This document shows, in pieces, positions 1,206-64,000 of a stretch of DNA of 64,000 nt. The stretch is from Undaria pinnatifida (lineage: Eukaryota > Sar > Phaeophyceae > Laminariales > Alariaceae). The stretch's first letter is position 1. The number at the start of each line of letters is the position of its first letter. Under the pieces are notes generated by a model. It searched no databases. It was not told where the DNA came from and saw nothing but the letters and a program-made list of their open reading frames with translations. The translations under genes were made by a program, and so were the position numbers. The DNA is taken from positions 4,292,200-4,356,199 of the forward strand of contig JABAKD010000023.1 of assembly GCA_012845835.1 (NCBI GenBank), in the 5' to 3' direction.

Positions 1206-2114
1206 ATAATACTCCCTTACTCAAACGCCCCACCGAATATCGAAATCCGCCAGATTAATAAACACTTCACGCACAGGATATCACCTAATTATCTTTCGAG
1301 GGCCATCCATGCCGCTGTGTCCCCCCTCCCCCCCTCCCGCGTCGAACGCCCCCTTCTTCCCCATCACCAGCACTATCGCCTAGACCTAGCACCACACGTA
1401 TAACAAACCCCTCACCTAAAGCCCTTCCACCCCCCCCCCCAACCCATCCCAACCCCACCCCCTCGAACACTCCACCCTCTCTTTACTCACTGATTGTACG
1501 ACTTACCCCAGGATATACATGATAAACTGATGCATTATTTCCAAAACAGTCACATTTATCCCCTCAAAATAATGTATAGTTTCCACGCACATATTGAGCT
1601 GCCCCACACGCCTTCCCCCCCGCCCCAACCCCCCCCCCCAAATATGAGCTGGTGCCAAAACCGTCAGATTTATCCCCTTGAAAGGATTTTTACCTTACAT
1701 GCACAAATTGCCCCCCCCCTCCCCCTCCCCCCCCCCCCCCCCCCTCCAAACCCGCTCGCTTTTGATCAAAACCAGGCCCCCACGTCCTTCAAAACTCCGC
1801 CCCCCCCCCCCTCACCGGTTATTCGACTTACAAGATTCACTTGATAAAAGGATACATTTCCCTTCACAGCTGTCAGATTTTGTCCCCCTCAGAAACGGGT
1901 TTTATAGTTTCCGCGCACAGACTGACTAAAATCACCCTGTTGAACCTGATAGCTACATTGTAGTTGTAAGGGGAGTCGCCGACCTATATCCTTAATGAGG
2001 ACACACAACTCGTCATGCACGCGATCGGAGTATCACACACAGCTTGCAAAGATGAGTTTCGATGAAATCTTCGATCTCACAGCTGGAGTGAATTTTCATT
2101 TTTTAAAATAATAC
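1206..2114 (+). mobile_element. Poly-C repeat element, copy A, inserted in the gypsy RT
   Basis: The element spans 1213-2107 and is bracketed by a perfect 7-bp direct repeat, ATAATAC (1206-1212 and 2108-2114), the expected footprint of an insertion. It carries no protein I recognise. Inside are several C tracts and at least three degenerate copies of a sub-repeat built around GATAAACTGATGCATT, then a fixed 3' part (about 1860-2107) with CGATCGGAGTATCAC and CAGCTGGAGTG. Five more copies of the family lie in this window. The class is unknown: I see no terminal inverted repeats, A tail or tRNA head. A non-autonomous retroelement or a TRIM-like relic are possible. The intact duplication suggests a fairly recent insertion. 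Confidence 0.8.
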
Positions 2115-3751
2115 GTTGGGCAATATTCCCGAGTTGCTTATTTATGTGGATGACCTCTTCGTTTTGTCCACAACCTGGGAGAATCATACGAAACCGTTAA
2201 AAAGCATGTTTGCAGCGTTGCAAGCAGCTGGTCTAACCCTGAAGCCGTCTAAACTAGCGTTTGGTCCTAAATCGGTTGTAAAGTTAGGCCATGTTATTTC
2301 TGCTGAAGGGGTTGCAGTTGGGAAAGATCGTACATCTTTGAGCTATTCAAGAGCTACCTACTCCCACCTGCATCAAAGATCTTCGTTCCGTTCAAGGGGT
2401 GATGAATTTCGTGCGTCGTTTTGTGCCGAATTTCGCTGAAGTAACCGCACCACTCGATGATCTCACCCGTAAAGAGTTTGGAATTAGATCACGCTTTAAG
2501 AAAGCCTGGGGGAAAACGCAAGATACCGCGTTCGCTCACATCAAACGTTTACCGATGTCAGCCCCAGTCTTGAAATTCCCTGGTTATGAGCGTGAATTTA
2601 TTGTGCGTGTAGATGCCAGTGAGATAGGAGTTGGCGCTTTTCTTGCTCAGCCGTCGAAAAATGACGACTCGAAGTCTGATCTGGACATTATCGCGTATTT
2701 TAGTCAACGATTCAAGCATGGGCAACGCCATTACTCTGCGTCAATGAAAGAGTGTTGTGGAGTCGTACTTACACTCACTCACTGGAGACCGTTTTGCGGT
2801 GATCACTGATCATCAAGCATTGACCCATCTATACTACATGCAGGATACGTCCAATATGCTTACTCGTTGGGCTATTGCGTTGCAAAACTTTGATTTTACC
2901 GTTAAACACGTCGCGGGAAAATTAAATGTAGTACCCGACGCGCTGTGTCGATTGTTCAATGAAGTGGAAGAAGAACCGTTACCGCAAGAACCAGCCCTTG
3001 CATCTATCTGCCGAAACGTTCCGAGCGATAGACCGTATCGTGCACCTGGGCCTCGCGATTTTCCAAGTATCTTCACAAAACCTCGAAGACGTAGACCTTG
3101 TACAGAATGATAGCGAATTGTTTGCTACTGCAGTGTCTCTGTTTCCGTTGCTTGACCCAGAAAAATTATTGGAAGAACAACGTGCTGAGTTCGGTCCGTA
3201 TATCGAATACGTAAAAGCACCTGTTACCGTACCCGTCGAAGATGGTGAAACCGAGAACAGCATGAGTCGTTGTTTTTTGAACGAAGAAGTATTATTCCGG
3301 TCGTATTTGCCGGGTTATCTGCGCAAACGCAGTTCGTTCCGTGATCAACTCGTCGTGCCCACCGCTTTACGTGATTTAATCGTCCACTCGTGTCATGACC
3401 TACCGGCATCTGGAGGTCATCTAGCTTTTAAAGCTACGTTCGATAAATCCGAGATCGTTATTGGTGGTCTACTATGTCGAAAGACGTAGCAAGGCACATT
3501 AACAATGCTGTTTATAAGGCCAACACCTTAAGACGTCACACCGTCCTCCGAAATTACCTGTTGTCATCGTCCTGTTTCCTGTCCGTTTCAATGTGTGGCT
3601 ATCGACTTAGTAGAGTACAAATCGTCGTCGAATAACTCTAAGTATGTAATGTCCGTGATAGACCACCTGACTCGTTTTCTCGTATTAGTTGCGATTAGTG
3701 ACAAGACAGCTGCCACAACGTGTTTTCTCCGTTATCTCAGCTCCTGAAACC

Positions 3752-5475: not shown

Positions 5476-7230
5476 ACAAGCCCCAGTACCACCCTCCGTC
5501 CTTCTGGGAGTCCTTAGTCATCAGTATCGTTGCACCACCTCCACTATTTTTGTTTTCCCGGCCGGGTTTCGTTCGTCAATAGTGCGTGGTTGACCCATGA
5601 GCCGCAACACTCATCAGTCCTTTTTTTTTGGTGGTTGCTTGGGCGTATTTTGTGGAGTATTGCCCACGTAATGAGTCATGGTTGGATACTCGATTGCTGC
5701 GGCCCAACAGCTGAGGTCGGGTTTTATACCAATAGTGGATGTTTGTTTTTGTTCGTTTCTTCGTGTGGAAGTACCTCACACAAAAAGATAGCATTTTTTC
5801 TCGTGAATAAAGTGCTATAGATTTAGAGACGCACACGGTTCAGAGACACTACTGCACATTGGAGTAGTAAGTGTTAGTGTGGGGGGCGTTCAACCAGTAG
5901 TTACGCAAGGGTGTGCATATACGAGCAGTATACACTCGGGCGTCATTGTTGGGTTAGTTGAGAAATTGTAACTTTGTACAGTGTGAATATACTTGATGTA
6001 TACATTGGCCGCAGTGAGGTTAATCAATGAATGATTATCGATTGTTCTGTATGAGATATTGGAGGCTCCTGGGTGCACTTGTAATGCATTCTCCAGTGTC
6101 AGAATCGTGTGTTGGATTGACTACAGAGTTACAGTTGAGCGCGTGAGCTGTATATTCCTAAGTAACAGAATCCACATATGGAATATTCCCCGGTCGTATC
6201 CCGTGTTACCGTGCGAACTGCACACAGTCAACCGTTAATTGACTGGCAGGAAGTCTCGTCATTCTGCAGATTTATCTGTGTACTGATTACGTTTGTCAGC
6301 CACCATCGTTGGCTGACCCGTGGTCATGATCTTGCCGTCCTATCGATTATGCCTTTTTCGATACTCGAGACATGCCACCTTATCGTTAACCATGCACCCG
6401 CAGTCCGTCATATTGCGCCGTCATCGTCACATCCACACTATCGTCAAGTCATGCAGACTCTTATCGTTATGATCGATCAATCATTTACCGTGTTGCATAC
6501 TCTGCTTGCATCGTTTTCTGGCAGATCGTAATTCAGCACATTTGTATACTCATCATTAAGTGTGTACCAAGCCTTGCAAGCAAATCGTCTCATACTCACA
6601 TCGTTTATGGTGAGGAATGTCCTGAGTATTGCCAAAGGTACTATCGTCCGTTATAACAGGTTGATTTTTATCGTCAAGTACGTGATTTCGGGACCGGATA
6701 ACCGTTCTGGTGAAGAATAAAGGTACATATCACTTGTAGTTCCTAGTGTGTGACTGACATCTTAAGTACAATTCGACTATGCTCATACAAGCCCGTGGTT
6801 CTAACTGCGCAGGGGATGACATGATTAGAAAATCAACAAGTGCAACACACACATTGACTACCACAGTACAACACAATACTCTGGCTTGTTACAGAACTTT
6901 GAAAACCTCTCTCCTCTTTAAATGTTTGAAAGCTGTGCTGGGTTCTCCAGTATGTAGGGTTCAAACGTTGGGGGGCGATATGGGTCACAGGTACACTTTC
7001 TACCGTTACGTAGACAGATCTTCTCGTGAAGACTTGTATGAACGGTAGCCGTTCCAGAGGTATTGGATACCGTGTCTTGTTGTACTTAAAGTAGTCGTGG
7101 AGTCCCCGTAGGTTCTAATGACAGAGAGGCGGGTAATCACGTTTCCCGCTGACAAGTAATCTCTGTCGACTCTCTGTTTAGGCTGCGAAGCACCTCTCGT
7201 TGCCTCAAGGCACTTCTATCATTACCGTCG
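5476..7230 (+). other. Sequence downstream of gypsy pol; LTR/UTR not delimited
   Basis: No gene is supported here. AATAAA signals occur at 5806-5811 and 6716-6721, and a G-rich stretch at 5880-5888 could be a polypurine-like site, but the 5' LTR is outside the window so no LTR pair can be compared. Part of this interval is probably the 3' LTR of the gypsy copy. Confidence 0.4.
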
Positions 7231-8377
7231 CTTGGTTCGCCGTCGAACCTTGCTCCAACCTGGCGTGTCCTTCACACTACGAAGAACAAGAAGAGAAGTA
7301 GTTGCAAGTGGCGAGTCGAACTTGTGTTACCCCAATCTCTCACAAAAGGAAGAAATAATCGCGATAAGGCTCAAACTCGTGTTGGCAGAAGAACCAAATT
7401 TATTTGCAGGAAGCAGCTGAAAGCTCGAGAAATAACTGGCAAAACGAGCAGAAGCAAAAACAGTAAAGGTCGATCCAGAAACCAAAGAAAAGCTAGACCG
7501 TTCCGCATATAGTCCGACCCCGGGAATGCCAGGGATGCACCAACCGAGCACTTTCAGCAGAAAAAAGTTAGTAAGTATATTTTCAAGGGCTCCGCTCCGC
7601 GGACGCTCGCGCAAGGCAAGGAAGAATGCAACACAAAACATGTAATGGAGGCAGAAAGAAGGACGCCCATGATTCGGTGCAAACAGCGCTTCGATAATGC
7701 GAAACGCTACTTGTGGAGAGCAATTTTCTCTGTTGTGCTCAGCTGTGCTGTGTGCTTTTGTTACCGGTGTTACGTTCTGATCGGCAGTAAATTTAAGAAG
7801 TAGAAAACGAACGAAGAAACAACTTTAAAAACGAAAAAAAATGCAATAATAATTGACGAAATGGAAGAACCAATAAAGTGTAGAGGAAAGCAAAGAAAAG
7901 GTAGAACGGTGAAAAAATGTTGCCAAGAGGTGCTCGTGCAGAGCTAATTGCACTCCGCTAGATGCTTGTTGATGTCACGTTCTGAACGGCAGTACGTGTG
8001 ACGAGGACACGACACGTACGTAATAAATGGTGCCTGGTACCCGTATCATACCTGGTACTACTGATGTATGTTCAAAAGAACGCACAGCGCCGCACGACAC
8101 AACGCCGCAAAACGATGGGCAAGGCACGGCACCGCACTATGCCGCGCTGCACTGCTGAGCTATTTATAACCGGGCTGACCTGAGCTGGGGGTGCGTTGTG
8201 ATGCAACAACGTAGTATGTACAAACTTATTAGTCTAATAGTACCGGTACGTGGGATGATACTGAGAATGAATGTTACTGGCATGTACGAACTAATAAAAG
8301 TACCGCGAAGCACGCAGCACGGCAAAGCAGCAAAGCACGTCAAAGCACAGCGCTGCGCTCTGCTAAGCTAGAGCTGC
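7231..8377. other. Non-coding, no recognised gene
   Basis: No protein family recognised. A short block near 7524 (ATGCCAGGGATGCACCAACC) recurs near 8613. From about 8085 the sequence becomes rich in GGCACGGC/GCGCTGC words, leading into the GC-rich duplication downstream. Confidence 0.4.
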
Positions 8378-11839: not shown

Positions 11840-12552
11840 TCCCTTGCTTCCTCTTGCTTAAACGCCCCACTAAGAGAATATCGAAATCCGCCAGAGTAAT
11901 AAACACTTCCACGCCCTGGATATCGCCTCGTTATCTTTTTAGAGCCGTTGATGCTGCTGCTGCAATTCCCACCCACCCCCGACCCCAACGCCCCCTCCTT
12001 CCTCGCCACCCGCAAGACCGCCTAGACCTAGCACCACGCGTATAGCAAACCCCTACATCTCTGCGACCTAAAGCCCTCCCCCCCCGCCCCCCGCCTCCCC
12101 CACCACATTCCCCCCCCCTCCCCCACAAGAAGGATTTGTAGTTTCCACGCACAAGTTGACCTGCCCCACCCATCCCCTCCCCCCTCTCCCCCCCTCAAGC
12201 CCCCCTTGGGATCAAAATCAGGCCCCCACGTCCTTCAAAACTCCGCTCTCCCCTCACCGGATATTCGACTTACAGGATTCACTTGATAAACTGATGCATT
12301 TCGTTCCACAGCTGTCAGAATTTGTACCCCTTAGGAACGGGTTTTATAGTTTCCGCGCACAGACTGACTAACATCACCCTGTTGACCCTGATAGCTACAC
12401 TGTAGTTGCAAGGCGAGTCGACGACCTATATCCTTAATGAGGACACACAACCCGTAATACGCGCGATCGGAGTATCACGCACAGCTTGCAAAGATGAGTT
12501 TCGACAAGATATTCGATCCCGCAGCTGGAGTGTATTTTAATTTTTATAATAT
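11840..12552 (+). mobile_element. Poly-C repeat element, copy B
   Basis: Same family as the copy in the gypsy RT. It starts with CTTGCTTAAACGCCCCAC and AATCCGCCAGAGTAATAAAC, has C-rich tracts at 12068-12125 and 12165-12205, and ends with the fixed 3' block (CGATCGGAGTATCACGC, CAGCTGGAGTGTATTTTAAT). It is shorter than copy A because it has fewer internal sub-repeats. No clear target duplication seen. Confidence 0.8.
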
Positions 12553-12700
12553 ATATGTAGTAGCACTACCCGCTGAGGTACTAAGTCAAGTTATTAAGTA
12601 GCTCAGTGGGCCGTTCTGTTGGATTTCTCCGTGAAATCACGTTGTTTGAAGGCCGTCGTTCGAGCGAGAAGCAAGCAAATTGTGTATTTTGAACGGCACT
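12553..12700 (+). mobile_element. tRNA-derived SINE-like fragment
   Basis: Contains TAGCTCAGTGGGC, a good Pol III A-box (tRNA D-arm) sequence, and a B-box-like GTCGTTCGAGCG downstream. A related copy lies at 22691-22815 (TAGCTTAGTGGGC, TTCGAACGGC). No tRNA cloverleaf can be drawn, so this is a SINE head rather than a tRNA gene. Confidence 0.6.
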
Positions 12701-13924: not shown

Positions 13925-14033
13925 GATGGACTGGATATACACTGCTGCTGTGCACTGGCTATACAGGGAAAGTACCATGAGTATACCACAGCATGCTGAT
14001 GATGCTCACTAGTAACTGCTGCTGTTCATTGCC
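13925..14033. repeat. Minisatellite, left part (about 74-bp unit)
   Basis: ACTGCTGCTG at 13941 recurs at 14015. The unit includes GTGCACTGGCTATACAGGG, AAGTACCATGAGTATACCAC, and CATGCTGATGATGCTCACTAG. The array breaks off after CATTGCCTATA exactly at the edge of the palindromic element and resumes on the other side of it. Confidence 0.8.
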
Positions 14034-15611
14034 TATAAGCTACTTGCATTAAGGATTTTAAATCGTAATTTCGGCTGTGGGGGGAGAAAAATCGAGAAAA
14101 TAATAACTTGGTTAATGTAGGGTCATGGCCCAGTTTGAGAGGAAAAAAAAGCATAGTAGAATCCCATATAAAAAAATTGAACAATCGACCAGCCAGCCAG
14201 GACACCAACACATCGAGGCACACATCATCTTCCACAGGGCATCCCGGACACACCAGACGGCATCCACAACACCCAAGCACCCTCCCAAAGAGGCTGCCAG
14301 GTTCCTGGTGGACGATCTGCGGGATTGCCCACGACAGACAGGCTGACGCGTCACCAAGAGTGCCCGAAGCGGCGCAAATTTAGCTCTTTGCTACGAACAC
14401 GTAGCAGCCAGCGAGCAATTTTCGAAATCAGAAAGCTCTTCTCACATTCTTTGGAGACCGACGAGCTGTGGCCCACACACAAACGCAACGCGCCACGAGT
14501 GCTCCACCCACGCCAACGCCACAGGTGCGGAAGGCTCAACCGGCCCCATCCCTGGCCCGCAGCAAAGCCTGTTTGCAGCCCACCAACAACAACAGCAGTA
14601 GTAGTATTGCGGCCTTTCAGCGTTTTTGAATATTTTGAGCAGTCTGCTCAATAATCAAAAAGCCACACCGTTTCATGAAAACCCGCGAACAGTTTGAAAT
14701 TCAAAAGCTCGGAGGTCGGAAGACAGGAGGACGACACCATGCAAGGCATACCATAGAAACGGCGGTGGTGCGCCTTTCTTCACCCTGAAGCAGCTCGTCT
14801 CTACCCCTGAGGCAGCCGGTCTCCACTCTTGAAGAAGCCGGTGGTCTCCATCGGTTCGAAGCCTCGAGTTTCCTCCTTTGGAACCCTCCTTGTGTCCCTC
14901 TTGCGCGGCCGTTTCCCATGTTACACCATCGGTGTATCGGCCACTTCCGGTCTTGCAAGGATGACGGCAAAGATGCAACCCTCGATCTTCGGCTAGACGA
15001 TCCAGCCAGATGTTTGTGGCTCGCGAGACGTCACCGGGATGACCAGCAGTGGTCAGGGAAAGACTCGAGAGTTTCATCACTTATTGATGTTGCAAACAAG
15101 ATCGACAAAATCGGCAACACAGATCTTGCCTTTATATTTCTACTGATGCTGTACATCATGACGTGGTAATCGATGACCCGTCCGAGGTGTGCACTTCTAA
15201 ATCGTTTCATATTGTTTTTAGTCTCTGTCGCGTCTCCCCCTCCTCTGGCATCAAACCCAATCCAACCACATTCTCCACATACATCAAACTTCATTGTCAT
15301 CAGAGCCTTCAAACCGTTTTGTTTTGTTCCCAGCAGTTTAGCACATCATCAACAGCAGTTGAGCACATTTTCAACAGCAGTTGAGCACGTCATCAACGCA
15401 CGAGAGTGACAGAAAATTGCGCCGCAGTAACCCACACAGCAGCAGCAGCACAGCAGCCTGTACGCGGTCGGTAGTCAGCGTCGAGGATAGGAACCGGTCG
15501 CTGGGCTCCCTGCCGTGTGTACTGATACCCTGCCGTGATGTTTGCTGCGGTGTAATTTTTCGTTCTGCAACAATACCTCTCGTTCATACTCCCAGCCTAA
15601 ACTTCCCAGAA

Positions 15612-16070
15612 TCATGAAAAATATACTACCAGGTACAGCACAGCCGGTAGCATGACCAGAAGATTGTTTGTTATGTGTGGTGAGTACACCCGGCGTCCGT
15701 GCTCATTATTCAACCTAGAGACATACAAAGTATATGTGAGACAGGGTAAACAACATAGTCTAATGAAGCAAGTCAAATGCCGGCGTACCGGGCACAACAG
15801 CAAAACAAAACGAGCGAGACCATAATATAAGGCAAAATTTGAAACTAAAAATGAAAACGCCAGGGGCCCTGAAGAAGGAGAGATGCAAAAAAGCCAGAAC
15901 GGCTGCAAGAGAAACAACCTACGTGCTGGTGAAGGGAAACAGCTAACTATTATTGCACGGACGAAACAACAGGAGACAGAGGAAGATACCGGCCTAAGGC
16001 CGGCGGGGAGGGAAAACAAGGAAACAAAGAGAGAAAAAAGGCAACAGCTGAAAACCAACAGAGAAAGCAA
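15612..16070 (-). CDS. Unrecognised 152-aa open frame, left arm copy
   Basis: The frame encodes a hydrophobic, Cys/Leu/Phe/Ser-rich protein starting MLSLLVFSCCLFSLF and containing several possible membrane-spanning stretches. Its partner in the right arm (19751-20209) differs at one residue. The DNA is pyrimidine-rich on the coding strand, which by itself favours hydrophobic open frames, so equal preservation may simply reflect the youth of the duplication. No family recognised; expression is unknown. Confidence 0.2.
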   Translation of the reverse strand: MLSLLVFSCCLFSLFVSLFSLPAGLRPVSSSVSCCFVRAIIVSCFPSPARRLFLLQPFWLFCISPSSGPLAFSFLVSNFALYYGLARFVLLLCPVRRHLTCFIRLCCLPCLTYTLYVSRLNNEHGRRVYSPHITNNLLVMLPAVLYLVVYFS

Positions 16071-16269
16071 TACAACAAGTAAATGGCATTACTGCCGCGT
16101 TCGCGCTTCCCCCTTCGATCTCGATGAATACACACAAAAAATAACATTTCCGCTCACTGTATTGTTTAGGGCTATACCATAGTACTTGAACATGCTCCAC
16201 AAAATAGTCAAACCGGTAGCTTACCACACCATGTACCATTTCGATTCGGCATTCATCTACAGCTGTATC

Positions 16270-17500
16270 GATACCCCCCCCCCCCCCCCCCCCCCCCCCC
16301 CTACCTCCAGTTTGCCCTTGTTGCTGTTCTTGGTGTCCACTGCTGTGTGGATTAGATAGCTCTTATCCGCCTCGGTCCTATGCCATTTCGCCATTAAGCG
16401 GCCCGCCGCGTTGACGACCCCCCGGTACCAGTTTCCACTGCTCTTAGCCGCCCCGGACCATAGCACACTCTTTACTCCCAACAGCAAAGCGGGGTTGTCC
16501 GTTGAATGCTTTGATATCGTCTGCTACAGCTTGGGCCCAGTTCTATTTCTGGTCGGCCTGGTCCCGGGTTTTACCCACACCAACCATCGTCCCGAACATC
16601 ACCCGATGAGTCAGCCGCTCAGTTGTCGTCCTTTGTACGGCTCCCGTGAAGAGGAGGTGGCTTTTTGCCTGGTCGTCTCAACGCTTTCACATGGTGTTGA
16701 GGGTCTTGGCGGTGGACTTATGGTGGTCGGTGCGTTGTCGGCGCTGGGAGCCAAAATCGGTCAGCAGGAGGTTTGAGGGTGCCGTTCATAAGTCAGCGAA
16801 GTGCCTCTGGCAGAGATCCCGAGCCACACGCCCGTACTGCAGGGTGTGTATCACCTCGGTCTTAGCAGGCGCACCTTCAGTATGAACGAAGCATCTTCCA
16901 TATCGTGCAGCTCACGCTTGGAACGATCGTAGAATGTCCAGCTTGAAACGATCGCAGCATGCCCACGCGATTGGGATCCGTCGATAATTTATGGCGTAAT
17001 GTCGGCGCTTTCGTTGATAAGACGGCGCGCAGGCACAGAAAATGCATCGTCTGCATACATACCTCTGGCTCGCCGTTTCGATAACAAGCGGTGGGGCCGG
17101 GAGAACCTTGTTGAGAGTGCGGGGCGGCGTTGTCTCTTTTTTCGTTTCGCGCACGGTGAGGCCTGCTGTTTCGAAAACGGTCACAATGACAGGATTTTCC
17201 GTTGATTTACACACAACGCCTGCATCGTCAGCGTACCGTATATCACGGACTGGCCTCCGTACATATGCCAGTGGTTCAACCTCCAACCCGCCCTCCCCGA
17301 AGTCCTCCTCGAGGTGCACCAAGTCCTCAAAAAATCTGGGTCCTCACTGCAACTTAGCGGAACGGAATGTATCGCTGTGCGGCGAAAAATACATTGCGAA
17401 GAAGCGGCGACAGTACACATCCTTGCCACAATCCCTGAGTGGCGTCATGCCATTCATAGTGTTCACCGTCATCCATACGCACGAGAGCTCGCATGCATTT
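16270..17500 (-). pseudogene. LINE reverse transcriptase remnant, left arm
   Basis: Read on the minus strand. At about 17380-17500 it has MDDGEH and QGLWQGCVLSPLLRNVFFA, the RT fingers/palm motif of non-LTR elements. At about 17216-17250 it has IRYADDAGVV, the catalytic motif. Further on, WYRGVV and LMAKWHKTE match the C-terminal region of the same kind of LINE (compare the element at 62963-64000). The QGLWQG and YADD segments are in different frames and stops follow, so it is inactive. It is truncated at its 5' side where the arm ends. No endonuclease domain is seen. Confidence 0.75.
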
Positions 17501-17542
17501 TCGTGGAACAGGCCAACAACGGAAAATATTTTCTCGGATACG

Positions 17543-18289
17543 CATTCCAACAACACACTCAACACTACGGCATATTTTTTTGTCATATATATCTTGATCA
17601 ATCAGCAGGCTCGGCGTAGATGAGAGGGGCAACAGCGCTGGGTTCAGTCAACGGCACAAACAAGCAGTTCCGCGAAACCCGTGCGAGCCCCTCCACAGTA
17701 AAGCGCGGTCCTACACTACCCAGCCCGCATCAAGGGGGTGCTGTGTTGTTTTTGTTGTACATGAATGAGAGTTTTTGCTTTTTCGGGAGAAGCGAGCAAG
17801 GGCCGCATTGAATATGTTTTGTCACAGCACTGTGGAGGTAAAGCGCGGACTCTAAGAAAGCAAGATGACTGTGAGATAGGCACACTCCACACAGACAAAG
17901 CACAGACAGTGGGCGCCCACGCCCACGCCGAGCACGCCATTTCTGCAGGCCTCTGGCATGGCCTGCACGATGGATTCCACAGATTTGTTTTTTTTTTCAA
18001 ATACGTGACATCATCGACCGATCGCTTCCTGCTTTGAATGGATAACGACCAATGACAGCGATTAGCCCATTTGTGGTCTATTCAACGACTGGGTACAGAT
18101 TGAATTTGGCTTTTGATTGCTATCGTAATAATTAAAAATATTTGAATTTTTTAGGAAAATACGGGCATGCGTTGGCTTTCGCGTCTACTCAGAAAAGCCG
18201 CGCGGGAGGTGGAACTGTGACGATGGCGCCATGGCGTCGTTCCTGTCGACGGCCACGTTCTCATGCACAAGTATCGAGCACGCGGATGA
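17543..18289. other. Unique spacer between the arms of the palindromic element
   Basis: 747 bp present once. It contains short open frames on both strands with no recognised family, and no transposase motif. It forms the loop of the potential hairpin. Confidence 0.7.
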
Positions 18290-18339
18290 CGTATCCGAGA
18301 AAATATTTTCCGTTGTTGGCCTGTTCCACGAAAAAGCTT

Positions 18340-19525
18340 GCGAGCTCTCGTGCGTATGGATGACGGTGAACACTATGAATGGCATGACGCCACTCAGGGA
18401 TTGTGGCAAGGATGTGTACTGTTGCCGCTTCTTCGCAATGTATTTTTCGCTGCACAGCGATACATTCCGTTCCGCTAAGTTGCAGTGGGGACCCAGACTT
18501 TTTGAGGACTTGGTGCACCTCGAGGAGGACTTCGGGGAGGGCGGGTTGGAGGTTGAACCACTGGCACATGTACGGAAGCCAGTCCGTGATATACGGTACG
18601 CTGACGATGCAGGCGTTGTGTGTAAATCAACGGAAAATCCTGTCATTGTGACCGTTTTCGAAACAGCAGGCCTCACCGTGTGCGAAACGAAAAAAGAGAC
18701 AACGCCGCCCCGCACTCTCAACAAGGTTCTCCCGGCCCCACCGCTTGTTATCGAAACGGCGGGCCAGAAGTATGTATGCAGACGATGCATTTTTTGTGCC
18801 TGCGCGCCGTCTTATCAACGAAAGCGCCGACATTACGCCATAAATTATCGACGGATCCCACTCGCGTGGACATGCTGCGATCGTTTCAAGCTGGACATTC
18901 TACGATCGTTCCAAGCGTGAGCTGCACGATATGGAATATGCTTCGTTCATACTGAAGGTGCGCCTGCTAAGACCGAGGTGATACACACCCTGCAGTACGG
19001 GCGTGTGGCTCGGGATCTCTGCCAGAGGCACTTCGCTGACTTATGAACGGCACCCTCAAACCTCCTGCTAACCGATTTTGGCTCCCAGCGCCGACAACGC
19101 ACCGACCACCATAAGTCCACCGCCAAAACCCTCAACACCATGTGAAAGCGTTGAGACGACCACGCAAAAGCCACCTCCTCTTTGCGGGAGCCGTACAAAG
19201 GACGACAACTGAGCGGCTGACTCATCCGTTGATGTTCGGGACGATGGTTGGTGTGGGTAAAACCCGGGACCAAGCCGACCAGAAAATACCTGGGCCCAAG
19301 CTGTAGCAGACGATGTCAAAGCATTCAACGGACAACCCCGCTTTGCTGTTGGGAGTAAAGAGTGTGCTATGGTCCGGGGCGGCTAAGAGGAGTGGAAACT
19401 GGTACCGGGGGGTCGTCAACGCGGCGGGCCGCTTAATGGCGAAATGGCATAAGACCGAGACGGATAAGAGGTATCTAATCCACACAGCAGTGGACACCAA
19501 GAACAGCAACAAGGGCAAACTGGAG
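18340..19525 (+). pseudogene. LINE reverse transcriptase remnant, right arm
   Basis: Mirror image of the left-arm remnant. QGLWQGCVLLPLL lies at about 18396-18436 and IRYADDAGVV at 18591-18620. Residual thumb and C-terminal motifs follow (DRSKRELHDMED near 18910, CESVETT near 19150, WYRGVVNAAGRLMAKW near 19400). Frameshifts and stops separate these motifs. The two remnants run head to head from the spacer outward, both 5'-truncated near the same point, showing that the LINE fragment was inside the arm before or during the inverted duplication. Confidence 0.75.
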
Positions 19526-19750
19526 GTAGGGGGGGGGGGGGGGGGGGTATCGATACAGCTGTGGATGAATGCCGAATCGAAATGGTACATGGTGTGGTAA
19601 GCTACCGGTTTGACTATTTTGTGGAGCATGTTCAAGTACTATGGTATAGCCCTAAACAATACAGTGAGCGGAAATGTTATTTTTTGTGTGTATTCATCGA
19701 GATCAAAGGGGGAAGCGCGAACGCGGCAGTAATGCCATTTACTTGTTGTA

Positions 19751-20209
19751 TTGCTTTCTCTGTTGGTTTTCAGCCGTTGCCTTTTTTCTCTCTTTGTTTC
19801 CTTGTTTTCCCTCCCCGCCGGCCTTAGGCCGGTATCTTCCTCTGTCTCCTGTTGTTTCGTCCGTGCAATAATAGTTAGCTGTTTCCCTTCACCAGCACGT
19901 AGGTTGTTTCTCTTGCAGCCGTTCTGGCTTTTTTGCATCTCTCCTTCTTCAGGGCCCCTGGCGTTTTCATTTTTAGTTTCAAATTTTGCCTTATATTATG
20001 GTCTCGCTCGTTTTGTTTTGCTGTTGTGCCCGGTACGCCGGCATTTGACTTGCTTCATTAGACTATGTTGTTTACCCTGTCTCACATATACTTTGTATGT
20101 CTCTAGGTTGAATAATGAGCACGGACGCCGGGTGTACTCACCACACATAACAAACAATCTTCTGGTCATGCTACCGGCTGTGCTGTACCTGGTAGTATAT
20201 TTTTCATGA
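19751..20209 (+). CDS. Unrecognised 152-aa open frame, right arm copy
   Basis: One-residue variant (Cys to Arg near residue 9) of the left-arm frame. Hydrophobic segments at roughly residues 1-25, 33-47 and 60-95. No homologue recognised. The frame begins just downstream of the LINE remnant and could be only a by-product of pyrimidine-rich DNA. Confidence 0.2.
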   Translation: MLSLLVFSRCLFSLFVSLFSLPAGLRPVSSSVSCCFVRAIIVSCFPSPARRLFLLQPFWLFCISPSSGPLAFSFLVSNFALYYGLARFVLLLCPVRRHLTCFIRLCCLPCLTYTLYVSRLNNEHGRRVYSPHITNNLLVMLPAVLYLVVYFS

Positions 20210-21772
20210 TTCTGGGAAGTTTAGGCTGGGAGTATGAACAAGAGGTATTGTTGCAGAACGAAAAATTACACCGCAGCAAACATCACGGCAGGGTATCAGT
20301 ACACACGGCAGGGAGCCCAGCGACCGGTTCCTACCCTGGACGCTGACTACCGACCGCTGTGCTGCTGCTGCTGTGTGGGTTACTGCGGCGCAATTTTCTG
20401 TCACTCTCGTGCGTTGATGACGTGCTCAACAACTGCTGTTGATAATGTGCTCAACTGCTGTTGATGATGTGCTAAACTGCTGGGAACAAAACAAAACGGT
20501 TTGAAGGCTCTGATGACAATGAAGTTTGATGTATGTGGAGAATGTGGTTGGATTGGGTTTCATGCCAGAGGAGGGGGAGACGCGACAGAGACTAAAAACA
20601 ATATGAAACGATTTAGAAGTGCACACCTCGGACGGGTCATCGATTACCACGTCATGATGTACAGCAGCAGTAGAAATTTAAAGGCAAGATCTGTGTTGCC
20701 GATTTTGTCGATCTTGTTTGCAACATCAATAAGTGATGAAACTCTCGAGTGTTTCCCTGACCACTGCTGGTCATCCCGGTGACGTCTCGCGAGCCACAAA
20801 CATCTGGCTGGATCGTCTAGCCGAAGATCGAGGGTTGCATCTGTGCCGTCCTCCTTGCAAGACCGGAAGTGGCCGATACACCGATGGTGTAAAATGGGAA
20901 ACGGCCGCGCAAGAGGGACACAAGGAGGGTTCCAAAGGAGGAAACTCGAGGCTTCGAACCGATGGAGACCACCGGCTTCTTCAAGAGTGGAGACCGGCTG
21001 CCTCAGGGGTAGAGACGAGCTGCTTCAGGGTGAAGAAAGGCGCACCACCGCCGTGTCTATGGTATGCCTTGCATGGTGTCGTCCTCCTGTCTTCCGATCT
21101 CCGAGCTTTTGAATTTCAAACTGTTCGCGGGTTTTCATGAAACGGTGTGGCTTTTTGATTATTGAGCAGACTGCTCAAAATATTCAAAACGCCGAAAGGC
21201 CGCACTACTACTGCTGTTGTTGGTGGGCTGCAAACAGGCTTTGCTGCGGGCCAGGGATGGGGCCGGTTGAGCCTTCCGCACCTGTGGCGTTGGCGTGGGT
21301 GGAGCACTCGTGGCGCGTTGCGTTTGTGTGTGGGTCACAGCTCGTCGGTCTCCAAAGAACGTGAGGAGAGCCTTCTGATTTCGAAAATTGCTTGCTGGTT
21401 GCTACGTGTTCGTAGCAAAGAGCTAAATTTGCGCCGCTTCGGGCACTCTTGGTGACGCGTCAGCCTGTCTGCCATGGGCAATCCCGCAGATCGTCCACCA
21501 GAAACCTGGCAGCCTCTTCTGGAGGGTGCTCGGGTGTTGAGGATGCCGTCTGGTGTGTCCGGGATGCCCTGTGGAAGATGATGTGTGCCTCGATGTGTTG
21601 GTGTCCTGGCTGGCTGGTCGATTGTTCAATTTTTTTATATGGGATTCTACTATGCTTTTTTTTCCTCTCAAACTGGGCCATGACCCTACATTAACCAAGT
21701 TATTATTTTCTCGATTTTTCTCCCCCCACAGCCGAAATTACGATTTAAAATCCTTAATGCAAGTAGCTTATA

Positions 21773-22200
21773 CAAGGGAAGTACCATGAGTATACCACAA
21801 CGTGCTGATCATTCCGAAACATGCTGATTATACTCACTAGTCACTGCTGCTGTGCACTGCCTGTACAACGGAAGTGCCACGAGTTTACCACAACATGCTG
21901 ATGATGCCCACTAGTCGGGATCATAACTCGTCGGCTCACAAGTCATGCTCACAACTCGGGGTTGTTTTCCATGATGAGTAGTGTACTTCCAGTTCATCGA
22001 CTCTATGACGGGATGGACCGGAAATACACTTCTGCTGTGCACTGCCTATACAAAGAAAGTATCGTTGAGTACCTGGTATACCACAACATACTGATGATCC
22101 TCATTTGTCACTGCTGCTGATCACTGCCTATGCAGAGGAAGTACCATAAGTATACCACAACATTCTGATCATACCATAACATGCTAACCATACCATCGTG
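21773..22200. repeat. Minisatellite, right part
   Basis: Continues the unit interrupted at 14033: CAAGGGAAGTACCATGAG, TATACCACAACGTGCTGAT, ACTCACTAGTCACTGCTGCTG, GTGCACTGCCTGTACAA, repeated about five times with decay. Together with 13925-14033 it defines the target of the palindromic element. Confidence 0.85.
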
Positions 22201-26954: not shown

Positions 26955-27510
26955 AAAATGACTTCCGACATGCTACCAGCGTATTACGGGTTGTGTGCCT
27001 AATTAAAGATAGAGGTCGGCCCCGACTCCCCTTGTAACCACAGTGTAGCTATCGGGGTCAACAGGGTGATGTTAGGCGGTCTGCGCGCGGAAAATGTCAA
27101 ACCCGTTTCTGAGGGAGACAATCTGACAGGTGTGGAAGGAAATGCATCAGTTTATCAAGTGAATCCTCTACGTCGGATAACCGGCGAGGGGAGGGCGGAG
27201 TTTTGAAGGACGTGGGGGCCTGGTTTTGATCAAAATGGGGGCGGGAGGGGGGGCGGGGGAACGGAAAGGTGGGGCAGCTCAATTTGTACGTGGAAACTAT
27301 AAATCCTTCTTGTGGGGGATGGGGGGGTGATGTGGCAACGGGGGGGGAGGGGGGGGGGGGGGGGGGGGGGGAGCTTTAGGGCGCATAGTTGTAGGGGATT
27401 GCTATACGCGTGGTGCTAGGTCTAGGCGATGGTGCGGGTGGTGGGGAAGGAAGGGGCGTTGGGGGCGGGGGGGGGGTGGGAATTGCCGCAGCGGCATAGA
27501 CGGTTCATAT
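26955..27510 (-). mobile_element. Poly-C repeat element, copy C, reverse orientation, 3'-truncated
   Basis: Reverse complement of the family: ATGTTAGGCGGTCTGCGCG, AACCCGTTTCTGAGGG, GGATTGCTATACGCGTGGT, with G tracts at 27340-27370 and 27460-27480. The final block of the family is missing at the 26955 side. Confidence 0.75.
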
Positions 27511-46974: not shown

Positions 46975-47530
46975 ATTCTGCCCGTCCCCCCCGCCCCCCC
47001 CGCGCTCACCCCCAAACCCTCCAACGATCCGCCCTCTCCTCACTGGATTTACGACTTGCAGAACATAAATGATAAACTGGTGCATTCTTTCCAAACCGTC
47101 AGATTCATCCCCATAAAAGATGTATAGTTTCCACGCACAGCTTGAGTTGCCCCCCCCCCCCACCCCCCCGCCCCCCGCTCTCTCTTGATCCAACTCAGCC
47201 CCCCACGTGCTTAAAACTCCGCCATCTCCTCACCGTTTATTCGACTCACAGGATTCACTTGATGAACTGATTGATTTCCTTCCACAGCAAGCCGTCGATT
47301 TTGTCCCTCTCAAAAACGGGTTTTATAGTTTCCGCGCACAGACTGACTAACATCACCCTGTTGACCCTGATAGCTACACTACTGTAGTTGCAAGGGGAGT
47401 CGCCGACCTATATCCCTGATGAGGGCACACAACCCGTAATACGCGCGATCGGAGTATCACACACAGCTTACAAAGATGGGTTTCGACGAAGTCTTCGATA
47501 TCACAGCTGGAGTGTGTTTTTCTTGAAATA
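46975..47530 (+). mobile_element. Poly-C repeat element, copy D
   Basis: Begins inside the family with a C-rich tract (46980-47005), has two internal sub-repeats (TGATAAACTGGTGCATTC and TGATGAACTGATTGATTT) and the complete 3' block ending CAGCTGGAGTGTGTTTTTCT. The family's 5' start is absent. Confidence 0.8.
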
Positions 47531-48385
47531 TATTATTGCCAGCAATCTGCACTTGATGTTTTGGACGCAGATTTTATGTGAATTGCCGCGGGCGCATGCC
47601 GTGTTTACACTGCCGTTAACACTGATCATGCTCGGCAATCTGCATCGTCGGTGCTGCTGGTCTGGCGACACCACCATACCTAGCTAACCACATGGCAGCA
47701 TATAGCAAGGAGTCCCCCCCCCCACCCCCCCCAACATGCGCTCCTCATTGCGGCGGTGGACAAGATATTTCTTGGACATCTCTTGTTATTGAGTGAAAAA
47801 CAGATAAATTCAAAAACGGGGGGGGCGGGGGGGGTTAGGATAATACAAATGTTGAGTTTACTAACACGTACACTTTGTACTTGTAAGACTTTCAATTGCA
47901 TGGTAAATACCACGAAATGTTTGCCCAGCGTTGCTGGTATCGTACCTAGAATTATACCTCCTCGATGCCGATATCTGATATTTTACAGGATATCACAATA
48001 ATACAAATACTATGAGAATATGTTGTACAAAGACACAGCATCCTATCTATACGATGATACCACTTGAACATATATTATGATTGGCAAACCAAAGTATATA
48101 TTTAATCGATATGAGTGATATATCGTATTAACTATTCGGGTATATGACTACACGATATTATAAACAATACTAGTGAGATATCGGGCTTGCTAAGGGGTGC
48201 GATATTGCACGGCAGATCGCGAGAAAATAACGCTACCTCCCACATCAGACGAGACAGTAAGCAACGAAAAAAACAAGATCGATACATCTATCCATCCATG
48301 CCGTAGCTCCAACTTATTTCCGCCGTCCGCCCCCCCCCCCCCCCCCCCCTGCCCTCCCCCCCCTTTTATTTTGTTCTCGCCCATT
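47531..48385. other. AT-rich non-coding region
   Basis: C tract at 47706-47729 and G tract at 47819-47837. Several ATATCG/CGATAT palindromic words occur at 47970-48190. A C tract lies at 48328-48349. No gene recognised. Confidence 0.4.
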
Positions 48386-48682
48386 TCGTTTAAATGCCCC
48401 ACATACAATTGAAATCGGCTAGAGTAATAAACACTTGTACGCAATTAGTAACACGTCATATTTTTCTAGCCATCCATGGCGTAGCTTTCATTCATCCTCC
48501 TGTCCCCCCTCCAACGCCCCCTCCTTCTCCAGCACTTGCACGATCGCCTGGACGTAGCACCACACGTACATCAAACCCCTACATATATGATCAATACACG
48601 AGATAGGAGTATTACAAACAGTCTTGCAAGGATAAGTTTCGACCAAATGTTTGAACTCACAGCTGGAGCGTGTTTTAATAAT
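48386..48682 (+). mobile_element. Poly-C repeat element, copy E, internally deleted
   Basis: Joins the family's 5' part (CTAGAGTAATAAACACTTG) directly to its 3' part (GGAGTATTACAAACAG, CACAGCTGGAGCGTGTTTTA), lacking the central sub-repeats. Confidence 0.75.
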
Positions 48683-48740
48683 ATATGTGACCTAAACCTC
48701 TTAAAAACCTCCCCCCCCCCACTTTTTTTTGTTTTTTTTT

Positions 48741-49295
48741 CGCTCTCTCTTGCTTAAACGCCCCACCTCATATCGAAATCCGCCAGCGTAATGAACACTC
48801 CACGCACTGGATATCACCTCATTATCTTTCTAGGGCCATCCATGCCGCTGCTGCAATTTCCACCCCCCCCCGGCCCCCAACGCCCCCTCCTTCCCCACCA
48901 TCCGCACAATCGCCTAGACTCAGCACCACGTGTATAGCAAACCCCTACATCTATGCAACCTGAAGCCCTCCCCCCCATCGGCCCCCTCCCCCCCCGCACC
49001 TCTTTACCCCCCCACCACACCCCCACCCCCTCGAACACTCCGCCCTCTACTCACTGGTTGTACGGCTTGCACGATATACACGAGATAAACGGGTGCATTC
49101 TTTCCAAACTGTCACATTTATCCCCTTACAAGAGTTTAGAGTTTACACAAACAGATTGAGCTGCCCCGCCCGCCCCCTCCCCGCCCCCCCCCCTCGCCCC
49201 CATGATAAACTGGTGCATTCTTCTAAAACCGTCAGATTTAGATTCCACGCACAAAAATGAGCTGCCCCGCTCGTACCCCTCCTCCCCCCCCCCTC
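48741..49295 (+). mobile_element. Poly-C repeat element, copy F, 3'-truncated
   Basis: Starts CTCTCTTGCTTAAACGCCCC, has AATCCGCCAGCGTAATGAAC, several C tracts (about 48862, 48970, 48990, 49183, 49285) and internal sub-repeats (GATAAACGGGTGCATTC, GATAAACTGGTGCATTC). The 3' block is missing; the X-M repeat begins right after it. Confidence 0.75.
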
Positions 49296-62962: not shown

Positions 62963-64000
62963 TCAATACGATGATGGCCAAACCCAGACTTCAGTCTCTT
63001 GGGCATGACGCTCCCCCTTCCGCCCCTCCCCCCTTCCTCCCTTTCCCCCTCCCCCCTCCCCCCCTCCCCCAGTCCCCTCCCCGCCCCCCCCCCTTCCCCC
63101 TCTCCCCGGCCGCTTAGAGATGCCAACGGTGGATGACGCTGCCGCAGCCTTTGCGCGTCGCTCTGCAGCTTTGCGTCTCTCCGTTTCATGCCAATTCCGC
63201 ATGAACAACTCGGCTCCCTCCTCTACTCTTCGAAACCATCTGCCAGCCTTCTGAGCAGCCTTTCGCCATCCTTCGAATTTCATTCCAAAAACCGACATAT
63301 CCTCCTTCAGATGATCCATCCAGTCTTTCTCTTGCCCCCCTGAGTAGCCTTTACCCCCAACAAACTCCCCAAACATCACCCTCTGTGGCAGACGCTCCTC
63401 CCCCATGCGTGCCACGAATCCCGCAAACAAAATCCTCCGTTTGCGCACTATCACCTCAACGCTCTCGGAATCTGTCTGGGCAAGCGCGTCGGCGTACGAT
63501 AGGGTGTGGTCGTCGCGCTTCCGTTTCCGACATCCAAGGCATCGGAGGAGCATGGAGTGGTGAACCCGTCGTAGCCTGTCATAGTCAGGCTTCTTCGGGC
63601 TCCACGTCATGCAACCGTACAGCAGTGTCTCGACCACCTCAGCTTTCAGCAACCGCACCTTCAACCGTAAACGCACACCCGGGCGATCATAGATTTCCAT
63701 CTTGTACCGCTGGAAACACGCCCAGGCCCTCTGAAGACGCCGCGTTATTTCAGTGCTAAGGTTTCTGTCTGCGGTGATAGCCCCGCCCAAGTATACAAAC
63801 TGGATTGTTTGTTTGTATACCTGGTCGGCTGCATTGATCGTGAAGGACACCTTCCCCCCGCTTTTGGTTTTCAGGCACATTATCTCTGTTTTTGCCTCGG
63901 ATACTGTAAGCCCGAACGACGAACACGCAGTCACGATCGTCGTCATCATCCTCTCCAGACCTTCTGATGATCGCGATACGATGCCCGCATCGTCCGCGTA
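62963..64000 (-). mobile_element. LINE (non-LTR retrotransposon), 3' part of reverse transcriptase ORF
   Basis: The minus-strand frame is open from the window edge (64000) to a stop at 62963. It starts at the catalytic motif, YADDAGIVSRSSEGLERMM, then FGLTVSEAKTEIMCL, FVYLGGAI, YDRPGVRLRLKVRLLKAEVV, LLYGCMTWSP, LLRCLGCRKRKRDDH and RRILFAGFVARM (thumb and C-terminal region of non-LTR RTs), then WHETERRKAAERRAKAAAA. The last 45 residues or so come from a Gly/Arg-rich low-complexity tract and are probably expansion rather than domain. The finger domain and any endonuclease lie beyond the window. No stop or shift is seen, so the copy may be young. Clade not certain (RTE- or Jockey-like). The remnants in the palindromic element are relatives. 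Confidence 0.9.
63016..63113. repeat. Polypyrimidine (CCCCTCCC)-rich tract
   Basis: Nearly pure C/T on the plus strand, inside the 3' end of the LINE frame, where it gives the Gly/Glu/Lys-rich tail. Could form G-quadruplexes on the minus strand. Confidence 0.9.

Follow-up and report, generated by a model that had tools for sequence, protein, structure and literature searches.

Structure of the palindromic element

The stretch of DNA analysed here (the window; 64,000 nucleotides, C30:4292200-4356199) contains a long palindrome, which appears to be a non-autonomous foldback transposon related to ISL2EU-like elements of the PHIS lineage. Self-comparison of the window revealed one long inverted pair, 14034-17545 versus 18286-21772, which is far beyond chance, and a repeat search recovered these arms piecewise, separated by 747 bp. 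Both results confirm the positions, arms and 747-bp loop given in a preliminary description of this DNA, which had also described the arms as reverse complements over their full length. The arms do pair along their whole length, but not quite perfectly: their alignment of 3516 columns has 60 mismatches and 9 gap openings and gives 97.4% identity. The element proper extends from 14037 to 21769 and has the termini AAGCTACTTG...CAAGTAGCTT. As described previously, no transposase is visible in it: none of 15 element frames, scanned out of 84 stop-to-stop frames (at least 60 amino acids) overlapping the palindrome region, matched a Pfam transposase.

Copies of the element in the genome

The searched genome comprises 511,146,479 bases in 68 contigs (C-numbers). 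The left arm had at least 54 matches, down to fragments, on several contigs (40 of 1232 candidates scored), and the loop at least 40 matches with 87-100% identity (40 of 135 candidates scored). With up to two mismatches allowed, the terminal 17-mer occurred 134 times in forward and 131 times in reverse orientation genome-wide, versus 16 and 16 for a reversed control pattern; its positions were taken from the first 100 among the matches listed. Copies with arms and loop together occur in differing flanks. Twenty genome stretches around matches were fetched (L-numbers), 13 of which contain a copy tabulated with both ends; the window copy (W) and a coding element on C32, described below, bring the number of tabulated copies to 15. 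Identity to the window copy is 99.2-99.7% in eight copies, 96.1% in two and 93.4-94.0% in three, and nine young foldback copies are mutually 98.8-99.8% alike. One copy is nested within the arm of another.

Because many copies sit in different flanks, the palindrome is not a one-off. Judged by these comparisons, it is one copy of a young non-autonomous mobile family with the hallmarks of foldback elements, namely inverted arms of great length, a short unique middle and multiple copies. As the copies are so alike, we infer that the family moved recently. The arm, loop, 17-mer and flank comparisons support the earlier suggestion of a foldback family of several copies, mobile in appearance, whose ends are shared and whose flanks differ; the opposite outcome foreseen there, homologues all sharing their flanks, was not found.

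Target site of the element

All 15 tabulated two-ended copies fit the pattern AT-A[AGCTACTTG...CAAGTAGCT]T-AT; the right end of L011 is damaged. The element that the nested copy splits likewise shows the expected context at each of its ends (on the left in L012; at position 9622 in L013), and four of six further single ends fit (L018, L022, L023, L024). The base before AT is A in 1 and T in 9 of the 15 copies, and the base after it is T in 3 and A in 9.

Empty counterparts were found for three targets, and in each the joined flanks cross the junction with AT present once. The first is the repeat round the window copy (13941-14000, 21820-21902, 22007-22185), where the joined flanks align gapless at the junction; the second is the arm of sister copies at the position of the nested insertion; the third is a repeat at window 1438-1636, which matches the L011 target. 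A dispersed repeat family, about 75-86% alike and present in both orientations, occupies window 1212-2110, 11849-12553, 26979-27506 and 46980-49203; one of its copies represents the empty counterpart of the L011 target.

The flanks had previously been read as a TATA target duplication. The actual mark is AT, and TATA appears because the target here reads T-AT-A; a 4-bp TATA duplication was rejected, the flanks of most tabulated copies being without a TATA repeat. A Tc1/mariner-type TA duplication with symmetric ends would need an additional TA at the nested site (L012/L013) and in the window repeats, and the ends do not fit a Helitron by the general criteria for that group. Insertion between A and T without duplication (A^T) predicts filled and empty sites identical to those of an AT duplication. 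We prefer the duplication, because AT is the published ISL2EU mark.

A coding relative with the same ends

A 16.9-kb coding element with the same ends as the palindrome lies at C32:22523759-22540655. Its terminal repeats are 738 bp long, start with AAG and are 100% identical to each other. At one end it matches the window arm over arm 1-695 (Table 1), and at the end carrying a THAP-like exon it matches the arm with 86% identity over 1-1042 (to about 15075). Ten frames, chosen from 34 stop-to-stop frames of at least 120 amino acids, were scanned against Pfam. The putative transposase frame matched DDE_Tnp_4 (1.8e-32), aligned at profile positions 1-155 of 158, and HTH_Tnp_4 (1.1e-4; 22.2 bits, below its own cut-off of 27 bits); the comparison with PHIS was made via the DDE_Tnp_4 profile alone. 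A second frame matched THAP at 0.018 when whole and at 0.0038 when trimmed (16.2-18.4 bits; cut-off, 23.9). A third frame matched XPG_N (1.3e-8). The best solved relative of this predicted nuclease is Exonuclease 1 (3qea, 3.8e-16), and the alignment retains the acidic positions of EAD, DSDL and GxDY. The remaining scanned frames gave nothing above cut-off, and no replication initiator was present among the 10. No YqaJ match was obtained in this genome, whereas two of the 14 control genomes gave matches.

A second coding element, on C56, is also flanked by AT; its transposase frame is 96% identical to that on C32, its terminal repeats are 93% alike and its nuclease region has stops. Genome-wide, 34 transposase matches were merged by hand into 18 loci (matches within 20 kb), and XPG partners were sought within 10 kb of them (113 of 153 XPG candidates scored). 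The XPG-transposase pair recurred at 9 of the 18 loci, always in convergent orientation (C32:22.54M, C56:6.46M, C30:10.52M, C33:12.23M, C27:14.26M, C38:16.04M, C34:2.67M, C30:8.43M and C28:3.19M); the other nine had no XPG among the matches listed. XPG nucleases are carried by Academ elements. Among the papers listed in a search of the open literature on XPG with Academ and relatives, judged by titles and the start of abstracts, none bore on the XPG-transposase pair, and no XPG-bearing Harbinger or ISL2EU DNA transposon was found among the papers listed from the open literature, Repbase being outside the scope of the search.

Two of the paired loci (C33, C30:10.52M) represent a sister coding lineage with 56% identical transposase. 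Its copies begin with AAG and end with the complement or nearly so, and their repeats are short and imperfect. Both are AT-flanked where their mutual homology stops; the C30 right end is without one T. Since this lineage with short imperfect ends is AT-flanked as well, the AT mark seems to follow the transposase lineage, and the long terminal repeats seem to belong to the branch studied here.

Some related loci were also observed. Upstream of the sister-lineage nuclease gene there are tandem units of about 307 bp (L035 6516-7800, L036 5766-7822), which differ in number between the sister copies and are broken by insertions. Terminal 17-mers occur within about 7 kb of XPG fragments at C33:9889732-9896353, C1:3983506, C20:8194802, C30:5636648 and C35:5089107; these fragments comprise only the N-terminal part, with stops, and the loci apparently form another non-autonomous subfamily retaining part of the nuclease gene. 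An inverted pair at C50:156311-156808 / 159361-159858 contains 314-amino-acid frames distantly related to DDE_Tnp_4 (27% identity), and may mark a further PHIS element with extended inverted arms.

Probable derivation of the arms and the loop

Each arm contains a THAP-like exon (Table 1). In the exon search most matches (best 150 of 255 candidates) cover about the first 53 query residues, and the foldback arms examined likewise keep only about the first 53 exon residues. Pieces of arm 1130-1643 and of the loop are collinear with C32 6213-7860, the homology ending inside the start of the nuclease gene, and between the arm stretch and the loop sits a broken reverse transcriptase (RT) fragment of the long interspersed nuclear element (LINE) type. 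This fragment aligns to a frame at window 62966-64000 with a domain E of 1.9e-8 in a one-sequence comparison and 4.5e-5 among 4274 frames. The window frame (minus strand) matches RVT_1 at 5.5e-6, below the family cut-off, and contains YADDAGIVSRS; it appears to be the C-terminal part of a LINE-type RT, its open frame running off the window. The RT-like arm frame itself had no direct Pfam match and, against PDB, nothing meaningful (enolases only, at 0.04). Judging from the shared exon, the collinear pieces and the LINE fragment, the arm derives from a rearranged part of the coding element with LINE sequence added, and was duplicated in inverted orientation.

In the THAP-like exon the pooled ratio of non-synonymous to synonymous polymorphism (pN/pS) was 0.71 in frame (19 sequences, 159 pairs) versus 1.10 and 0.97 in the shifted frames, which is too weak to claim selection, and a coding role for the frames in the arms was rejected. 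The values for the RT-like frame (1.19, 6 pairs; shifted frames 0.54 and 0.99, 20 pairs) were uninformative.

The exon matches are unevenly distributed: by hand count, 47 of the best 150 of 255 lie on C30 (5.4% of the genome), 46 of them within C30:3.79-10.64 Mb, the window included. These are counts of matches, not of elements, which have two arms each. The clustering could reflect local hopping or a poorly recombining region.

Table 1. Features of the foldback element and its target in the window
Feature	Coordinates	Strand	Basis
Target-site duplication AT, left	14035..14036	.	AT/AT in 15/15 tabulated copies; empty paralogues at three targets
Left arm of foldback element, starts AAGCTACTTGCATTAAGG	14037..17542	+	Self-comparison, repeat search, genome matches
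Arm terminus, 92.6% identical to the two ends of the 16.9-kb coding element	14034..14728	+	Arm 1-695
Putative THAP-like transposase exon remnant, open frame	14918..15079	+	First 53 amino acids 62% identical to C32 exon
Two stretches collinear with coding-element interior, 74-76%	15163..15676	+	Arm 1130-1325 and 1496-1643 versus 6213-6406 and 6529-6662
Degenerate LINE-type RT fragment, left arm, two frames	16915..17601	-	Without direct Pfam match
Unique loop	17543..18289	+	Present at 40/40 scored places, 87-100%; pieces collinear with coding-element 7118-7860
262-amino-acid frame spanning the boundary of loop and right arm; contains the degenerate RT fragment with YADDAG motif	18132..18917	+	Without usable sign of selection
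Right arm, inverted copy of left arm, ends CAAGTAGCTT	18290..21769	-	Self-comparison, repeat search
THAP-like exon remnant, right arm	20734..20895	-	Frame comparison
Target-site duplication AT, right	21770..21771	.	Tabulated copies
Neighbouring target-repeat copies without element (empty sites)	21820..22185	+	Flank alignment

Possible homogenisation of the arms

In the nine young copies 82 columns separate left from right arms. Left-left and right-right identity between copies averages 99.35%, compared with 98.5% between the left and right arms of the same copy. Long blocks of the opposite arm's type were found in L009, L010, L016, L019 and L020, whereas W, L011, L013 and L014 have only scattered columns of the opposite type. 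The mosaic blocks suggest gene conversion between arms; they may also arise from chimeric arm assembly.

The C32 element contains 213 of the 3485 21-mers of the arm, 204 of which lie within its terminal repeat, so that silencing of the parent element by the foldbacks is possible. Mu killer of maize, a single silencing locus, consists of a transposon's transposase-gene end duplicated in inverted orientation. The foldbacks resemble it as inverted duplications of a transposase-gene end, with silencing being hypothetical in their case.

Comparison with known transposons

According to the available parts of a 2015 survey (PMC4482050), ISL2EU elements are about 4840 bp long, duplicate AT within A|AT|T, have terminal repeats of 6-259 bp mostly starting with GG, and encode a DDE/HTH/THAP transposase and, as second gene, YqaJ; they were known from 14 animal species, and from animals only. 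As far as these parts and those of a second source go (PMC4482050, PMC9179366), the likeness consists in the AT duplication, in the DDE_Tnp_4 and HTH_Tnp_4 transposase (encoded by the coding relative, not by the window copy), in a second gene that is a nuclease in both, and perhaps in a THAP-like N-terminal region, the score of which lies below cut-off here. The differences are that the nuclease is XPG/EXO1-like instead of YqaJ, that the coding element measures 16.9 kb instead of about 4.84 kb, that the terminal repeats are 738 bp long (3.5 kb in the foldback), and that the host is probably not an animal (a brown alga). Because YqaJ, the length and bases of the termini and the extended target differ, we regard the coding lineage, on present comparisons, as ISL2EU-like within PHIS and not as a member of ISL2EU. 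No ISL2EU report from brown algae was found among the papers listed from the open literature (Repbase again outside the scope).

The preliminary description suggested that the palindrome may represent an undescribed family of giant foldback elements. That it is a self-standing new class is not supported: its ends, AT mark, THAP-like remnant and interior homology tie it to the 16.9-kb element, and arms of such length are known from one Galileo copy. In the available text on Galileo (P superfamily, Drosophila), this foldback-like DNA transposon has arms that grow by recruiting internal sequence, and its longest copy, without transposase, is 9021 bp long, the arms measuring 4246 and 4680 bp (PMC4168063). 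Its transposase superfamily differs from the present one, and such length is described for a single copy whose arms contain tandem repeats; in the present family, by contrast, 3.5-kb arms and the one loop are common to many copies. Tetris and Mutator/Foldback Tm1 are described as foldback transposons in the parts of the literature available to us, and are set beside the present family by description only.

Proposed origin and mobilisation of the foldback family

The interpretation that we favour, with a probability of roughly 0.86, is that the palindrome is a non-autonomous foldback, cut-and-paste derivative of an ISL2EU-like (PHIS) transposon and is moved in trans by the transposase of a related element. 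The THAP-like-exon end of such a transposon would have become fused to internal sequence lying upstream of the nuclease gene, and the joined unit would then have acquired the LINE fragment. Copied in inverted orientation round the 747-bp loop, the unit would have spread as a whole. The transposase of the related 16.9-kb elements would recognise the shared AAGCTACTTGCATTAAGG ends, excise the foldback and insert it into AT, and arm-to-arm gene conversion would keep the arms alike. The family would then be a giant foldback family tied to a specific coding transposon by its ends, target mark and shared exon, and would extend ISL2EU-like elements to a probable brown alga, with another nuclease partner.

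Several observations weigh against this interpretation. The THAP score lies below the Pfam curated cut-off, and the sister-lineage exon gave no THAP match in the Pfam scan. TAAA stands in place of ATAA at two single left ends (L028; a second end in L017). The terminal bases are AAG and the target leans to T-AT-A, in contrast to the GG and A|AT|T of ISL2EU in the available part of the survey. Both examined coding copies match the window arm at 84-93% only; as the young foldbacks are 98.8-99.8% alike, the real mobilising partner may be another coding copy. The sequences themselves show the family with its ends and AT mark, the coding relative, the exon and interior pieces held in common, and the conversion-like blocks; the mobilisation in trans by this transposase and the order of the events that built the palindrome are steps that we infer.

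An unlikely variant gives the nuclease a part in the origin of the palindrome. In a PHIS lineage outside animals, the element's own EXO1-like nuclease would resect the excision break, and the single strand would fold back and be copied into a giant foldback, the double-stranded RNA of whose exon-bearing arms would restrain the parent. The recurrence of the XPG-transposase pair makes an element-borne resection nuclease a concrete candidate for the origin of foldback palindromes.

It is quite improbable that the foldbacks are a self-standing family served by an unrelated transposase and that the 16.9-kb elements merely acquired their ends. Foldback matches do far outnumber matches to the transposase of the coding element, and the young copies resemble one another more closely than they do the coding copies; against this, foldback and coding element have in common the AT duplication, the THAP-like exon and interior sequence beyond the terminal repeats, and the two sister coding copies, with short imperfect ends, are AT-flanked too. 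Even less probable is spreading by copying of a hairpin single strand (rolling-hairpin or peel-and-paste) instead of cut-and-paste. The near-perfect 3.5-kb arms could fold, and the data fit an A^T insertion without duplication equally well (element TAAGCT...AGCTTA), but the related elements encode a DDE transposase, the 10 scanned frames of the C32 element include no replication initiator, and AT is the mark published for ISL2EU in the available part of PMC4482050. Long palindromes are difficult to assemble, but that the palindrome is an artefact of assembly, or an isolated segmental inverted duplication, is hardly credible: same-loop copies with AT duplications lie in differing flanks on several contigs, one copy is nested inside another's arm, and the mosaics of left- and right-type bases in the arms vary from copy to copy.

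Other observations

A frame at window 2757-3107 (plus strand) matches RT_RNaseH (2.2e-7) and appears to be a retrotransposon remnant. EsV_1_7_cys had at least 150 matches in the genome (150 of 2164 candidates scored) and none in the 14 control genomes; according to the available text of an Ectocarpus paper, the EsV_1_7 family is expanded in brown algae (PMC7457493), and on this ground the host is probably a brown alga.

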